A stretch of 64,000 nt of DNA from Anaeramoeba flamelloides (taxonomy: Eukaryota > Metamonada > Anaeramoebidae): positions 2,852,501 through 2,916,500 of the forward strand of contig JANTQA010000051.1 of assembly GCA_027625915.1 (NCBI GenBank). Direction: 5' to 3'. The translations under genes and the position numbers were made by a program. The notes below the pieces were generated by a model. It was given only the letters and a program-made list of their open reading frames with translations, ran no database searches and had not been told where the DNA came from. Positions within the stretch are counted from its first letter, which is position 1; each line of letters starts with the position of its first letter. Below are positions 9,479 to 57,524 of this stretch, one piece after another.

Positions 9479-9886
9479 GACTTTAGAACAATTTTGTGAA
9501 TTGTCAATGTATTCCTTAAATGAGTAAACTTACATTTAGAAAAATCATTATTTTGCACATGTTCCCTTTGGTAATTCTTCTTTTGATTATTCTTTTAGCC
9601 TTTTACTTGCGTGTTTTTACACCAGTTAAGATTACTGAAGCAAAATACATGGATTTTATTTTTGTTTACAGAACAACAACTGGCCCAGATAATAATGTCA
9701 GGAAAGTTGGTTTGGAGGTAAGCAAAATTGTCGACGAGAAAAGCAACTTCAAATACGATATGACATCTAGTTTTTATTACAACAATCCACACCAACACAT
9801 CAAGCCTGAAGGTTTACTATCTACACATGGCGTTTTAATCCCCAAAGTCAAGGACTCTTTTGCAATTCTTGTGTTTTGTAAGACAA

Positions 9887-12717
9887 CACTACAAGGAAAA
9901 TTTAAATACCTAAAATTAAAGTTAGCCAAAAATATACATTGGATTTAAGTTATACTTCTTTTATAAATTATTTTTTCAAAGTTATCATAATTTTAGGTAA
10001 TAAAAATAGGATAGCTATTAAACTCTTGAAAATCTGAATACCCCCCTTTTCAAAAATACCGACTTTTGAAAAAAACACCTATTTTCAGGGTATTTTTATA
10101 TTCGAAAAAGTTGAAATGAATTAATTTTTGATTGAACATTAAGATTGAAAAAAGAATATATGTTAAAGCAATTTGCAGAAAAAAAACCGGGAACGTATAT
10201 AAAAAACTCAAACATGGAAAAAAATAAAATGATAAAAAATATTCCAAAAACAGATAAAAAATCAGATTTTCAATTTAATTGAGCAATATCTTTTGATTGA
10301 AATATTTTGTACTATTTTCAAATTGAAAAATATGTTTACTTTTATACTATTAAAAAAAATACTTGAAAATTATCTCTCTACTAAGTCAATTAAAAAATTC
10401 AAAAAATTTTACAATTAAAAATGAAACAAATATTACTGAAAAATTTCATTTTTTTTTCAATTCCTATTAATATCTATTAAAGTTGTAAACCTCATTGAAA
10501 ATTGTTATGTATAATAATGTTTATTATTTGAGTGTATTTCAAAAATACAAAATTTAGAGATTTTTTTTTGAAAAAATTTTCCTTGTATACAAGGAAAATT
10601 TAAATACCTAAAATTAAAGTTAGCCAAAAATATACATTGGATTTCAGTTATACTTCTTTTATAAATTATTTTTTCAAAGTTATCATAATTTTATGTAATA
10701 AAAAAAGGATAGCTATTAAACTCTTGAAAATCTGAATACCCCCCTTTTCAAAAATACCGACTTTTGAAAAAAACACCTATTTTCAGGGTATTTTTATATA
10801 CGAAAAAGTTGGAATGAATTAATTTTTGATTGAACATTAAGATTGAAAAAAGAATATATGTTAAAGCAATTTGCAGAAAAAAACCGGGAACGTATATAAA
10901 AACTCAAACATGGAAAAAAATAAAATGATAAAAAATATTCTAAAAACAGATAAAAAATCAGATTTTAAATTTAATTGAGCAATATCTTTTGATTGAAATA
11001 TTTTGTACTATTTTCAAATTGAAAAATATGTTTCCTTTTATACTAGTAAAAAAAATACTTGAAAAATATCTCTCTACTAGTTCAATTAAAAAAATTCAAA
11101 AAATTTTACAATTAAAAAATGAAACAAATATTACTGAAAAATTTCATTTTTTTTTCAATTCCTATTAATATCTATTAAAGTTGTAAACCTCATTGAAAAT
11201 TGTTTTGTATAATAATGTTTATTATATGAGTGTATTTGAAAAATACAAAATTTAGAGATTTTTTTTTGAAAAAATTTTCCTTGTACACTACAAGGAAAAT
11301 TTAAATACCGAAAAATTAAAGTTAGCCTAAACTATATATTGGATTTCAGTTATACTTCTTTTATAAATTATTTTTTCAAAGTTATCATAATTTTATGTAA
11401 TAAAAAATAGGATAGCTATTAAACTCTTGAAAATCTGAATACCCCCCTTTTCAAAAATACCGACTTTTGAAAAAAAACACCTATTTTCAGGGTATTTTTA
11501 TATTCGAAAAAGTTGAAATGAATTAATTTTTGATTGAACATTAAGATTGAAAAAAAGAATATATGTTAAAGCAATTTGCAGAAAAAAACTGGGAACGTAT
11601 ATAAAAAACTCAAACATGGAAAAAAATAAAATGATAAAAAATATTCCAAAAACAGATAAAAAATCAGATTTTCAATTTAATTGAGCAATATCTTTTGATT
11701 GAAATATTTTGTGCTATTTTCAAATTGAAAAATATGTTTCTTTTTAGACTACTAAAAAAATACTTGAAATATATCTCTCTACTAATTCAATTAAAAAAAT
11801 TCAAAAATTTTACAATTAAAAATGAAAAAAAATATTACTTAAAAATTTCATTTTTTTTTCAATTCCTATTAATATCTATTAAAGTTGTAAACCTCATTGA
11901 AAATTGTTATGTATAATAATGTTTATTATATGAGTGTATTGGAAAAATACAAAATTTAGAGATTTTTTTTTGAAAAAATTTTCCTTGTACACTACAAAGA
12001 AAATTTAAATACCTAAAATTAAAGTTAGCCAAAACTATACATTGGATTTAAGTTATACTTCTTTTATAAATTATTTTTTCAAAGTTATCATAATTTTAGG
12101 TAATAAAAAAAGGATAGCTATTAAACTCTTGAAAATCTGAATACCCCCCTTTTCAAAAATACCGACTTTTGAAAAAAAACACCTATTTTCAGGGTATTTT
12201 TATATTGGAAAAAGTTGAAATGAATTAATTTTTGATTGAACATTAAGATTGAAAAAAGAATATATGTTAAAGCAATTTGCAGAAAAAAACCGGGAACGTA
12301 TATAAAAAATCAAACATGGAAAAAAATAAAATGATAAAAAATATTCTAAAAACAGATAAAAAATCAGATTTTCAATTTAATTGAGCAATATCTTTTGATT
12401 GAAATATTTTGTGCTATTTTACAATTGAATAATATGTTTCCTTTTATACTATTAAAAAAATACTTGAAAATTATCTCTACTAAGTCAATTAAAAAAATTC
12501 AAAAAATTTTACAATTAAAAATGAAAAAAATATTACTGAAAAAATTTCATTTTTTTTTTAAATTCCTATTAATATCTATTAAAGTTGTAAACCTCATTGA
12601 AAATTGTTATGTATAATAATGTTTATTATATGAGTGTATTTCAAAAATACAAAATTTAGAGATTTTTTTTTGAAAAAATTTTCCTTGTAGTGTAGTGTAG
12701 TGTAGTGTAGTGTAGTG
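9887..12717. mobile_element. Tandem array of four ~700-bp CACTA-ended nonautonomous elements
   Basis: Four near-identical head-to-tail units start at about 9887, 10585, 11286 and 11990 (period 698-704 bp). The outer ends are perfect inverted repeats: CACTACAAGGAAAATTT on the left and its complement ending CCTTGTAGTG on the right. Inner junctions read CCTTGTA-CACTACAAGG, except the first, which is shortened to CCTTGTATACAAGG. The CACTA terminus is diagnostic of the EnSpm/CACTA superfamily. Flanking AA at 9885-9886 and 12718-12719 is a candidate 2-bp target duplication, shorter than the usual 3 bp. No unit encodes a transposase, so movement would need one in trans. The unit contains a C6 run (gaatacccccctttt) and an internal inverted repeat around AAAAATACC. 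High identity among units suggests recent amplification. Confidence 0.85.
12688..12717 (+). repeat. TAGTG x6 microsatellite at the array terminus
   Basis: Six perfect copies of TAGTG, the complement of the CACTA terminus, close the right end of the array. The left end has only one CACTA. Confidence 0.95.
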
Positions 12718-13267
12718 AAATGGATTAAAATCCTACGAAATCAAAGAAGCAGATGTAATCGAAGGGTACTTTCCGATTGACAGGTCACTAGCCATGTTTG
12801 TTGCAGACCGGACGAAAATGGTAGGCTTCATGAAAAAGGCTGCCCCCTTGGGTGGAAAGGAGGCGCTTATGGAGTGCTGCACTGGCAAGCCTGGCAAAAA
12901 AGGGTCAAATCTTTATTATGTTGTAACAAAAGAAATTAAGGGAATTTGGGATGTAAAAAATTGTTTCAGAGAAATCAAAAAAGAAAAATAAATTTAATTG
13001 TCAATGTAGAGGATGGGAAAACAGTTTGAACGAATTTGATCTTTTTTTAAAAAAAAAAGAGCTGAGCTTTTAATTTCAATGAAAAAGATCACAAATCCCT
13101 CTTTTTTGTTTTCTTTTTCTTGTTTTGCTTTATTATTCTTTTGATAATTTTCCTGATTTGCTTTGGTTATTGAGTTAGTTTTTGAATGTTCAAGGTTTTT
13201 TAAGTTAGTTATTGGGTGGTAAAGGTTTTTTTTTGTCTTTAGTTCTTTGCAAAAACAAGACTTTTAC

Positions 13268-13471
13268 AGTCAGTTTCACTTTTAAGGCACAAACTTTCAA
13301 CGAAATTTAAGGCACAATAAAAATCTCAAATTAAGGCAAAAAATTTGGAATGAAATTTTTTACAAATTAATTTACTAGAATATGAATTTTGTGCCTTAAT
13401 TTGAGATTTTTTATTGTGCCTTAAATTTCGTTGAAAGTTTGTGCCTTAAATTTGAAATTGACCTAAAATAT
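13268..13471. mobile_element. Palindromic mariner-like MITE, copy a
   Basis: About 200 bp, nearly all inverted repeat. Terminal CAGTCAGTTTCA, then AAGGCACAAACTTTCAACG and AAATTTAAGGCACAATA in the left arm, mirrored on the right. A TA precedes the left end, and the sister copy at 48017-48209 is flanked by TA on both sides, as expected for Tc1/mariner-type insertions. Confidence 0.85.
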
Positions 13472-41659: not shown

Positions 41660-42841
41660 TCACATAAGTGAGCATGCTGTATTTTTCTGAGTAATGCAAA
41701 GCTTGCTATTTAAGGAAGAATTCAAATTTAATTGATAATAGTCAATTAATTCTAAAAGTTCCAATGAAGTATTTTTCTTCAAAGTTTTGGGGATTTGGTT
41801 TGTATAAAAAAAATTGATCAAATTTTCGATAATAACGGACGATTTTCGAGAATAATCGTTGACTTGGTTTGTCGATTTTTCACACGAAAGGAAGAATCCC
41901 CTAAAAAGGTCTGATCGTGCTGCAAGAATTAGTTTGTGTGTTTTGATGCTTGTTTTGCCAATTTTTAAGGTGAAATCTGTAGTCTTTTCGTTTTCACGCA
42001 ATTCTTGCAAATCACTAACCAAATTGTTGACACCTGACAAATTGAAATAGTCGAGATCCAATTTTTGGCAAATGTTCTGGATATTTGCAAAATTTGAAGG
42101 GTTTGTGTACCCGCAGTAAGCCCAGCTCAGAAACTTTTTTGCTTGCCTTGGTGTGATTGTTAAAAGCACCTCTTGAATTGTTTCGAGAGAGACTTTCAAT
42201 TTGCACTCCAAGATGAGCCGATGAACACCGATTTGTTTGTTGTTTTGCAGTTGGAACGCGTGGTCGCAAAACTCTTGCCTTTCGAGCAAGTGTTGGAAAT
42301 CCTCAACCAAATCCTCATGGCTGATTTTTTCCTTCATGATGGTGAAGTAATGCAAAATATTGACAAAGGTCGTTTCCAGATTTTCCTTTGTTTTCAACGA
42401 GCACTCGAAATAGGGGCAGTCGTATTGCCTTGACAATTCTTCTCCCTCTTGCCTGCTGATTTTCCTTCCCTTTGTGTTCTCTCCGAAATCGACCTTGTTG
42501 GCAAGCAAGACATACTTCAAGTTACGGCTGCCTTTCGTCTTGATTTTGCGTTGGAATTGCTTCACCTTTTTAAGGGAGCGCCGGCACGTAACGCTGTACA
42601 TTAAAATGAAATAGTTGAAACGGAAGATGTGCTGATCAAACATCGAGTCAAGAGGCTCCTGCCTTAGCATCTCAACAATCCCCAAGAAATAGTCGCGATC
42701 CTCTAATTCAAGCAGCTTGTTGTACGTTTTGTCCCATTCCTCGTCAATGTCGCACAGCAAACTGTTTTGAACGCTCTTTCGAAAGGTTGTCTTCCCCACT
42801 TTGGAGTCTCCTAAAATCATAATTTTGTCCTGTTCGTCCAT
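41660..42841 (-). CDS. Ras-like GTPase fused to two BTB domains, CaaX-ended
   Basis: Single exon, 393 residues. N-terminal Ras fold: P-loop GDSKVGKT (11-18), the strand FILMYSVT (78-85), base-recognition NKVD (115-118) and a CSLK in place of SAK (147-150). The switch regions are abnormal. The effector threonine context is replaced by DEEWDKTY, and the DTAGQE motif reads VEMLRQE (56-62), so the Mg-binding Asp is absent. Two BTB-like units follow: an atypical one at about 188-250 (FCDHAFQLQ..VHRLILE) and a clear one at about 288-375 (TTDFTLKIG..THKLILAARSDLFRGFF). The protein ends in CSLM, a CaaX prenylation signal, so membrane attachment is expected. BTB domains recruit cullin-3 ligases; here the GTPase may be a targeting or pseudo-GTPase module. 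The same tandem-BTB block ends the Sel1 gene at 55.5-57.5 kb. The first two thirds are notably GC-richer (about 45% in a sampled line) than the neighbours. Confidence 0.85.
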   Translation of the reverse strand: MDEQDKIMILGDSKVGKTTFRKSVQNSLLCDIDEEWDKTYNKLLELEDRDYFLGIVEMLRQEPLDSMFDQHIFRFNYFILMYSVTCRRSLKKVKQFQRKIKTKGSRNLKYVLLANKVDFGENTKGRKISRQEGEELSRQYDCPYFECSLKTKENLETTFVNILHYFTIMKEKISHEDLVEDFQHLLERQEFCDHAFQLQNNKQIGVHRLILECKLKVSLETIQEVLLTITPRQAKKFLSWAYCGYTNPSNFANIQNICQKLDLDYFNLSGVNNLVSDLQELRENEKTTDFTLKIGKTSIKTHKLILAARSDLFRGFFLSCEKSTNQVNDYSRKSSVIIENLINFFYTNQIPKTLKKNTSLELLELIDYYQLNLNSSLNSKLCITQKNTACSLM

Positions 42842-55400: not shown

Positions 55401-57524
55401 CATTATTTAAAAAAATAAATTTTTGCTCAAATAAATAAATGAAAAAAAAAAAAAAAAATAGCTTTGGGAAGGTTGGGTGATTGTTATTTTTTTGGCCATG
55501 GAGTAAAAAAAAACATTATTAAAGCAATTAATTTATATTTAGAGTCATCTGAATTTTCTGTTTCAAGATCTGAAAAGCGAATGGTCGATTGTTTCAAATT
55601 GAAGAAAAATAAAAACAATGAGAAATTAATTCAGAAATATCACGAGATTATTACACAATTAATAAAAAACGCAGAACAGAACAATGATACGAAATCACAG
55701 TTAATCTTAGGAATTTTCTATCAAAATGGCAATGGAGTTGTTGAAGATAAAGAAAGGGCATTTGGGTATTTCAAATTATCTGCGAAACAGGGCAATTTAA
55801 TTGCACAAAGGAAATTGGCATTAAGTTATTTACAGGAGGGGGAGAGAAAAAATAAAGAAAAATCAAATTATTGGATGAATTTATCAGCTGATCAGGGTAA
55901 TTCTGGATCAATTAACAACATTGCTATTAATTATTTAAATGGGTTTGAGGTGGAAAAGAATTTGTACAAATCAATTTTGAATTTCCGAAAAGCTAAAAAA
56001 CTGAAGAATGCTAATGCTTATAACTCTTTGGGTATCTTGTATTTAAATGGCGGGGGTGTACCCAAGAATTTAAATATTGCATTCAAATTTTTTTTCAAGT
56101 CCCATTATTTAGGATCGTCCAATGGAACCGAAAGTTTAGGGTTCTACTACCAATATCACAGCAATAATTCCCATGTCAACAACAAAAATAATTCATACAA
56201 GATATACAATTATTACTTGCGTTCTGCTAAAGAAGAGAACCCAGATGCACAGTTTGCCTTGGCGATTTGTAGTTTACAGGGTATTGGGGTAACAAAATCA
56301 AAAAAGCAGGCATTTCATTTATTTAAAAAGGCTGCAGAAAATGGAAACACTGAAGCAAAAAATAGCTATGCAATATGCTACGAAAAGGGGCGTGGGTGCA
56401 AAAAAAATATACAAAAGGCCTTTGAAATCTATAAAGAAGCAGCCAAATTAAATGAAGCCAATTCTTGTTATAACTTAGGGATCTGTTATTTAAAAGGAAA
56501 AGGTGTAGATGTTGCATATGGTCGGGCCTATAAGTGGTTTAAAAGGGCAGCTCAATTTGATGATTTTCGTAACCTAAGCATTATCCAGGGCATTTCAAAA
56601 TTACAATTCATTATCACAAGAAATGGGAGATATGAGGAAATCGAAAAGGTGTTGCGTAAAGGGTGTGAAATTAATGAAATTTGCCAGGCAACAAGCCAAA
56701 GTGCCTTACATTTGATATGCCAAGCATCCAATAAAAAACAATTCCAATTATTCCAATTATTAATTGACCATGGGGCAAACCCTTATTTGAAAAATCATTT
56801 AAATAAAACACCCATCGATCTCTTAAAAACAAAATCAGACAAAAAAATGTTTTGTTGCGAAATTTCAATAATAGAAGATTTTTTAAACGTTTTTCAAGCT
56901 GAAGAATTGACAGATTTAATAATTTGTAAAAAAAGGGTAAATAGGTTTTGGGTTGAGCATCGTATCGGCAGAAAATTTACAATCAATGACAATCACATTT
57001 TGTCACAATATTCGTGTCAAGAGGTGAGGCAATGGCTAAAATGGGTTTATACGGGAATCATTGAGGGAGAAAGAAGGATTATCTTGAAGATTTCAAATCA
57101 TCTCAAAATAAGTACATTTCAACAAAAGACCGGCAAATGTGGTTTAATTAATGATCTCAGAATGCTTATTCAACAAACTAATTCAATGGATTTTACTTTA
57201 ATCATTGATCAAAAAAATTTAAAAATGCACAAGTTTATTATGCAAACAAGATCAAATTTATTTAGAGGACTGTTTTTGAGCGTAACACAGATCTTTAACC
57301 AAGTCAGAGACTATTCAAAAAAAAGTTATCAAACTTTAAACTGCTTAAGAGATTTTATTTATTCTGACTCGTTTGCTACTAATAATTTTATAAATAATAA
57401 CAACCCAAATATTTTCCATCTAATCGAAGATCTTAAGGAGGCCAAAGAGTATTACCAATTAAATAAAAAATCTAAATTAATTGATTGTTTGCATCAAATT
57501 AAAAATTATTGTAATATTAACTAA
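49458..57524 (+). CDS. Sel1-repeat / ankyrin / double-BTB protein
   Basis: Two exons: 49458-49719 (ATG at MDIEKLKSKAK) and 55462-57524, joined across a 5.7-kb phase-1 intron (donor GTAAGACTT, acceptor AAATAG) to give 774 residues. The joint falls inside a Sel1 repeat and reads AAEKKNPRALGRLGDCYFFG, a normal family sequence. About ten or eleven Sel1-like repeats span residues 18-450 (for example LGICYLKGKGVDVAYGRAYK). Two ankyrin-type repeats follow at about 476-542 (SALHLICQ, LLIDHGANPYL). An atypical BTB unit (about 564-640) and a clear BTB domain (about 662-760: MDFTLIIDQ, MHKFIMQTRSNLFRGLF) end the protein. Sel1 and ankyrin repeats are protein-binding scaffolds, and BTB suggests a cullin-3 substrate adaptor; this role is inferred. 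The tandem-BTB part matches the Ras-BTB protein at 41660-42841 in order and motifs. Confidence 0.87.
52440..52845 (+). repeat. Diverged interspersed repeat family 5, copy b
   Basis: Aligns with the reverse complement of 21742-22180. Inside it, TTTGATAATTGA and its exact inverse TCAATTATCAAA (near 52736-52770) form a perfect 12-bp stem. Confidence 0.8.
54100..55045 (+). mobile_element. LINE fragment (reverse-transcriptase region), decayed
   Basis: Translation matches the 28-31 kb LINE from LNEYKIENIYLVTNDIQN, through FDSIHHFLIYHSINKFIKNE, SQLLYGLEIFDFTKSDIKKI and LIYKSEAKIDSARITIDKRK, to NSWSWK. It is truncated at both ends. The 3' break at about 55045 is occupied by a hairpin module. Several stops and frameshifts. 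Confidence 0.85.
55045..55325. repeat. Hairpin modules with GC-rich tag, abutting a LINE fragment
   Basis: The first fold-back, 55048-55142, runs from TAGGTTTTTTTTACTTTTTG to a T-rich/A-rich inverse ending AAACCTAGG. It is followed by TACTCTACGGCACTCTAAG, then a second A/T fold-back at 55250-55320 (TTTTTTTTTTAATT against AATTAAAAAAAAA). Confidence 0.7.

Follow-up and report, generated by a model that had tools for sequence, protein, structure and literature searches.

In the excerpted literature considered here, tandem arrays of transposons have so far been ascribed to slippage, nesting or microsatellite targeting, and head-to-tail arrays have been treated for both CRISPR and transposons (PMC6977970). 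According to the cited part of PMC9333248, insertions of IS30 at its own ends yield exclusively left–right junctions, and its hot-spot insertions are accompanied by 2-bp duplications. In rice, 11% of MITEs were reported to occur in multimers (Jiang and Wessler 2001, as quoted in PMC10664404), and coral CMITE arrays have been attributed to slippage (PMC2872659, in excerpt). Duplications of 3 bp are described for plant CACTA elements (excerpt of PMC8978399), and duplications of 2 bp for 7 of 14 copies of the animal CACTA member SmTRC1 (excerpt of PMC1636069). Polar self-insertion combined with a growing terminal repeat was undescribed in the titles and abstract openings among the matches listed for self-inserting or tandem MITE and CACTA arrays in a limited set of papers.

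In the window, i.e., the whole stretch of 64,000 nucleotides of Anaeramoeba flamelloides DNA analysed here, the array at 9887-12717 consisted of four ~700-bp units in a single orientation (Table 1). Its outer ends were formed by CACTACAAGGAAAATTT at 9887-9903 and by the exact complement at the right end (17 bp, perfect), the pairwise identity among the four units was 96.2-97.8%, and no ORF of at least 150 aa was found inside the array. The initial annotation had described four ~700-bp units between perfect inverted ends with AA on both sides, and both the sequence and the unit alignment bear this out. With a slash marking the boundary between units, the three junctions were, in order, CCTTGTA/TACAAGG, CCTTGTA/CACTACAAGG and CCTTGTA/CACTACAAAG; the inner junctions thus carry nothing, CAC and CAC, which leaves the inner right ends without a GTG of their own. 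End-like sites (15 bp, at most two mismatches) numbered 8 in the window vs. 1.32 expected, and none of 100 shuffles reached 8.

Table 1. Features of the interrupted gene and of the inserted array, in window coordinates
Feature	Position	Strand	Basis
Split reading frame, left part: first 122 codons and one base	9520..9886	+	joined-frame translation, paralogue alignment
AA, 2-bp target duplication, left copy	9885..9886	.	empty paralogue, flank comparison
Unit 1, including the outer left tip CACTACAAGG	9887..10587	+	sequence read, unit alignment
Unit 2; junction to unit 1 without CAC (CCTTGTA/TACAAGG)	10588..11285	+	unit alignment
Unit 3, preceded by CAC tip; standard junction CCTTGTA/CACTACAAGG	11286..11989	+	unit alignment
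Unit 4, preceded by CAC tip; standard CAC spacer; left end with one mismatch	11990..12689	+	unit alignment
Right tip GTG(TAGTG)5, i.e., six GTG	12690..12717	+	sequence read
AA, 2-bp target duplication, right copy	12718..12719	.	empty paralogue, flank comparison
Split reading frame, right part including the stop codon	12720..12991	+	joined-frame translation

Removal of the array together with one AA gives a frame of 212 codons with its ATG at 9520. When the right half of the gene was used as a DNA query against the genome, one other locus was found (86% identity), and this paralogue, L049, carries a continuous frame in which the site is empty. Its alignment with the joined flanks contained 630 identities in 755 positions and 10 gap positions, none of which fell at the insertion point. 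The proposal that the array splits a 212-codon frame is thereby borne out, and the empty paralogous site also supports the view that a mobile element with CACTA-type tips broke the reading frame and duplicated 2 bp of its target. As for the 2-bp flank said to restore the frame, the frame is indeed regained with one AA removed, but the flank is an ordinary target duplication and no special frame-restoring device. The dN/dS ratio between the split gene and L049 was 0.34 (simple Nei-Gojobori count, 199 codons), a value that is silent on the time since insertion. The TEX264-like name was not confirmed with the intact paralogue, which gave no supporting Pfam or PDB match: the Pfam search yielded no family at E ≤ 0.001 and, at E ≤ 10, two matches below the cut-off, both to other families, and the PDB sequence search returned one match with an E-value of 1.5. 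That the array serves as an intron in a gene still being expressed is very unlikely. GTAAGA does stand at the left boundary, CCTTGTAG resembles an acceptor, and another acceptor inside the gene's right half might preserve the frame at the cost of a short deletion (all by eye); however, GT joined to any TGTAG acceptor leads to an immediate TAG or to loss of the frame (by eye), and the paralogue has no intron at that position. At this locus, a MITE has disrupted a gene in an ordinary manner.

Other features of the window were recorded alongside the array. A palindromic element of ~200 bp with 55-nt arms that are 95% complementary lies at 13264-13462; its relatives, with 78-92% identity, were seen in L017, L025, L035, L039, L041, L044 and L045, and in L025 one such element lies inside a MITE unit. 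A gene at 41660-42841 (minus strand) joins a Ras domain to a BTB domain, and a gene at 55464-57524 combines Sel1 repeats with a BTB domain. The domain search also detected RasGEF genes; these, the Ras-BTB gene and the high A+T would be in keeping with an anaeramoebid (excerpt of PMC11550330).

Genome-wide, where the host DNA is high in A+T, the 17-bp end with at most one mismatch was matched 1049 times (541 + 508) and its reversed pattern once per strand, and the exact 25-bp junction occurred 96 times, with none for the reversed control. Clustering of these 96 junctions placed tandem copies at no fewer than 72 sites, so that the initial annotation's view of such arrays as unusual for a protist does not hold for this genome. 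In a similarity search confined to the best candidates, all of the 95 matches listed except the query itself were 94-97% identical. A non-random sample of 40 regions was taken from the lists of end, junction and similarity matches; including the window, it comprised 42 loci (19 solo copies and 23 arrays) with 95 units, after L025, whose unit is split by another insert, had been dropped by the length filter and L001-L008, loci supplied with the end matches, had been left out.

The tips could be read by script on both sides at 31 of the 42 loci (the other 11, 8 solo copies and 3 arrays, were set aside), and 2-bp duplications flanked 27 of them, namely, 11/11 solo copies and 16/20 arrays, with 4/20 arrays having no matching flanks. 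The swapped-flank control gave a 2-bp match at frequencies of 0.145 and 0.158, and a 3-bp flank match was found at none of the 31 loci. The duplicated dinucleotide at the 27 positive loci was TA in 8, TT in 6, AT in 4, AA in 3, AG and CA in 2 each, and GG and TG in 1 each. To the left of the duplication, the adjacent base was C in 16 and the next one A in 21 of these loci; to the right, T occupied the second position in 19 and G the third position in 15. The targets thus resemble YAC-NN-GTR, which is close to the element's own tip CAC/GTG, and the right tip CCTTG-TA-GTG consequently supplies one half of such a favoured site. At 10/27 loci, the flanks contained a complete CAC on the left or a complete GTG on the right. 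Since CAC on the left and GTG on the right were equally frequent (6/27 each), the host targets are without polarity, and they were rejected as the source of the polarity of the arrays.

With its 17-bp TIR, target duplication, absence of coding capacity and many homogeneous copies, the element belongs to the MITEs, although the usual MITE length is ~500 bp and the unit described here, at ~700 bp, is longer. Plant CACTA elements bear CACTA tips, and the termini CACTA...TAGTG of the CACTA/EnSpm type were found here as well; the plant-type 3-bp duplication was not, its place being taken by the 2-bp one. The TA duplication of Tc1/mariner elements does not describe the family either, TA accounting for only 8 of the 27 duplications, and the absence of a target duplication that characterizes Helitrons was likewise not observed. 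A rolling-circle, Helitron-like concatemer inserted at once would account for tandem copies, which Helitrons are described as forming (excerpt of PMC5148889); however, the same excerpt describes Helitrons as making no target duplication, in contrast to the 27/31 readable loci with one in this genome, and the units within an array generally do not derive from a single template, so that this origin is scarcely credible.

Profile searches with PF02992 and PF18759 gave no match in the genome and none in any control genome. The end-variant pattern CACTACAAGGAAAATTTS occurred at 10 places, three of which were at known copies (C1:4082066 and C1:4930160, corresponding to L016 and L018, and C24:19799602 beside known junctions); five of the other seven were fetched, and no transposase with the same 17-bp ends was found among these five of the 10 places. 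As candidates for an autonomous partner, L051, L052 and L054 proved to be MITE copies, L050 a MITE with an internal insert, and L053 a stretch of another, unrelated repeat that contains a short match to the end; the remains of a DDE_1 (pogo-type) transposase in L055 were rejected because they lie between inverted repeats with other ends. The CACTA identity proposed at the outset is upheld for the tips, and the family may belong to CACTA/EnSpm; the searches above returned no transposase with such ends, and its duplication measures 2 bp, a length also reported for animal members. Two side observations concern these loci. The DDE_1 pieces of L055 (2245-3449, minus strand), near L053, have other ends and show that a second DNA transposon family is present. 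The repeat at L053 80-500 is abundant, unrelated and dispersed (five copies ~80-84% identical; best 40 of 3744 first-look candidates scored).

The junction pattern used distinguishes all four possible arrangements of two units, and all 86 exact junctions so classed were direct and right-nested, CCTTGTA/CACTACAAGG head to tail, with none in the reversed control and no inverted or left-nested junction among the 86. Exclusive left–right junctions at the element's own ends are an IS30-like feature, in the sense of working alike rather than of membership. Among the 53 sampled junctions, 43 carried CAC and 5 carried GTGTAGTGTACAC, and TAC, CAT, TTACAC, GTGTTATATTACAC and no spacer were found once each. 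The arrays are quite probably the product of a non-autonomous MITE (~700 bp, CACTA-type tips) that inserts serially into the right tip of a resident copy. A transposase acting in trans would cut the target CCTTG-TA-GTG with a 2-bp stagger, and the newcomer would land between TA and GTG, the resident retaining CCTTGTA. The newcomer would then be trailed by the duplicated TA and the displaced GTG, which would add one more TAGTG to the right tip, and its own complete right tip would renew the target, so that the array could gain one unit per round. Direct insertion at TA/GTG of the right tip with duplication of TA predicts CCTTGTA/CACTACAAGG on the inside and TAGTG repeats on the outside; at the GTGTAGTGTACAC junctions, the unit would have joined at a TA lying further out in a repeated tip. 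As for the window array, its first unit would have entered the protein-coding gene at AA and the array would have grown there, the six GTG of its right tip representing displaced right tips plus TA duplications from successive self-insertions.

Right tips with at least three repeats were matched exactly 63 times (control 0), and a pattern fitting left ends only found no left tip with at least three; in the sample, two repeats were present at 3/42 left tips and three at 0/42. The number of units was correlated with the number of right-tip repeats (Spearman 0.75, 42 loci; left tips, -0.06); the coefficient was 0.65 when six more solo units, picked for having three repeats, were included, and 0.51 for the arrays alone, or 0.64 when the repeats trapped in junctions were counted. 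Repeats equalled or exceeded units in 19/23 arrays (shuffled mean 16.7, p = 0.065; 17/23 by right tips alone), with fewer repeats than units in 4/23. A right tip with at least three repeats was found in 23/54 arrays of at least two units, in 11/13 of at least three and in 4/5 of at least four. An exact junction lay within 2.5 kb inward of 39 of the 63 repeated tips, the outward control giving 1. As for the other 24, the tip at C13:8669002 ends a pair of adjoining units and one belongs to the solo unit L031, which has six repeats; the six fetched from these 24 tips were all solo units with three repeats. By eye, the 2 bp outside the tips matched in L060, L062, L063 and L065 and did not match in L061 and L064. 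It was considered whether the repeat-bearing solo units form one mobile subfamily; this was rejected, as the tree gives six label changes for six rows, i.e., they are scattered.

Solo units with expanded tips mean that the repeat number is no clean counter of units and that solo units, too, retain or acquire repeats. They also speak for the reverse order of events, in which slippage or repair first lengthens the right tip to (TAGTG)n and insertions are subsequently drawn to the longer tract. Such an order is nevertheless unlikely, since, given the 2-bp duplication, insertion at TA/GTG alone adds TAGTG, and since the 43 plain CAC junctions correspond to the innermost TA instead of being spread along the tract. 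Tract expansion and self-insertion may both be at work, and array collapse by recombination between units, or slippage, is a likely addition to the self-insertion model.

The order of the units by age was evaluated from how many differences separate a unit from its nearest sampled relative; the medians were 21 for solo copies, 14 for first, 11 for middle and 4 for last units (14, 11.5 and 8 for first, middle and last units, respectively, when relatives from the same array were excluded). First and last units differed when paired over 23 arrays (p = 0.001). Judged from these sequence differences, the last units look youngest in the sample, but not in the window array, in which the first unit had 10 and the last 15 differences to the nearest relative; there, six repeats stand against four units and the last unit is not the youngest-looking. 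At alignment column 320, the A/C ratio was 11:12 among first units vs. 50:3 among later ones (p = 1.2 × 10−5, uncorrected for the columns scanned). For 17/23 last units, the nearest relative in another array was also a last unit (6.7 by chance), and relatives of the same class were found for 3/23 first and 8/30 middle units, both below chance.

An alternative is local amplification, in which replication slippage, or unequal exchange among the units, would have multiplied a single insertion at its site; the strict head-to-tail order agrees with this. The nearest sampled relative was in the same array for 17/76 array units vs. 2.1 expected by chance, and units 2-3 of L037 and units 3-6 of L044 are identical or near-identical neighbours, which suggests recent local duplication in some arrays. 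The mean identity was 97.16% within arrays (100 pairs) vs. 96.79% between arrays (2750 pairs), a value as high being reached in 0/1000 label shuffles; however, within-array identity is barely above that between arrays (97.2 vs. 96.8%), and slippage of whole units adds no TAGTG at the right tip and puts no youngest-looking unit last. Local copying contributes as a minority process in this sample, and as the general explanation of the arrays it is improbable.

It is more doubtful still that an already arrayed element was inserted, whole arrays moving as composite transposons via their outermost tips. The window array has intact outer tips, and most of the readable arrays (16/20) have 2-bp duplications, but the same duplications are equally expected from the insertion of a lone first unit, and no two of the 23 arrays shared two near units in the same order (by eye, unit pairs with at most 6 differences). 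The number of units also varies within same-site pairs. In the first such pair, L014 has three units and L026 one unit with one repeat; their left flanks are 90% identical over 249 positions, and the right flank has a common start and then diverges (68% over 142). In the second, with flanks 96 and 94% identical, L022 has three units, three right repeats and two more in a junction, and L045 has five units and five repeats. Most units in both pairs have their closest relative in a place other than the partner's units; independent growth, loss or conversion is therefore involved. Of the two histories put forward in the initial annotation, the one favoured for the family is array growth following insertion, in view of the youngest-looking last units and the variable unit number at shared sites, and insertion of an already arrayed element is less favoured, as the by-eye comparison of the 23 arrays showed no shared ordered units; the age order is not seen in the window array itself.

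By analogy with IS30 (excerpt of PMC9333248), the strict polarity of serial self-insertion would reflect orientation-specific recognition of the resident's right end. Palindrome instability could account for the absence of inverted units and not for that of left-nested direct units, and was set aside as an explanation. The left tip has the same 17 bp as the right tip, and its lack of use as a target is not explained by the findings, which raises the question of what allows so strict a distinction between ends that share one 17-bp repeat.

In comparison with known systems, the gene disruption is ordinary, but the element forms arrays in a systematic and polar manner that can be read mechanistically. 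The likeness to IS30 lies in the 2-bp duplications, near-palindromic preferred targets, insertion beside its own ends and tandem dimers; in contrast, IS30 is bacterial and autonomous and has circular or dimer intermediates, and no growing terminal repeat is described in the excerpt (PMC9333248), so the likeness is an analogy only and no homology is claimed. The rice MITEs, known here from the citing paper (PMC10664404, in excerpt), are similar in forming multimers. The coral CMITEs also form tandem arrays of full-length MITEs; according to the excerpt of PMC2872659, they differ in being of the piggyBac type with TTAA duplications and in that the units and spacers of one array are alike, whereas in the arrays described here a unit is, on average, scarcely more similar to its array partners than to units at other sites. 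The SaTar MULE arrays of guayule and rice likewise line up uninterrupted elements with short repeats at the joins, but they consist of unrelated families in microsatellites (excerpt of PMC5907723), whereas here one family is involved and the repeat matches the tip of the element. With the CACTA elements of plants and animals, the family shares the CACTA tips and, with SmTRC1, the 2-bp duplication (excerpt of PMC1636069). Dozens of arrays can be read in this genome by their fixed junction, terminal repeat, 2-bp duplications and age order, and the step from a dispersed transposon to a satellite-like array becomes directly testable. Even weight, for and against, is given to the broader proposition that a eukaryotic transposase prefers its own right end, in an orientation-specific and constantly renewed manner, with one-way growth, the newest unit last and one repeat per event. 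If true, this would place a counterpart of IS30 end targeting in eukaryotes, one formally similar to the polar growth of a CRISPR array.
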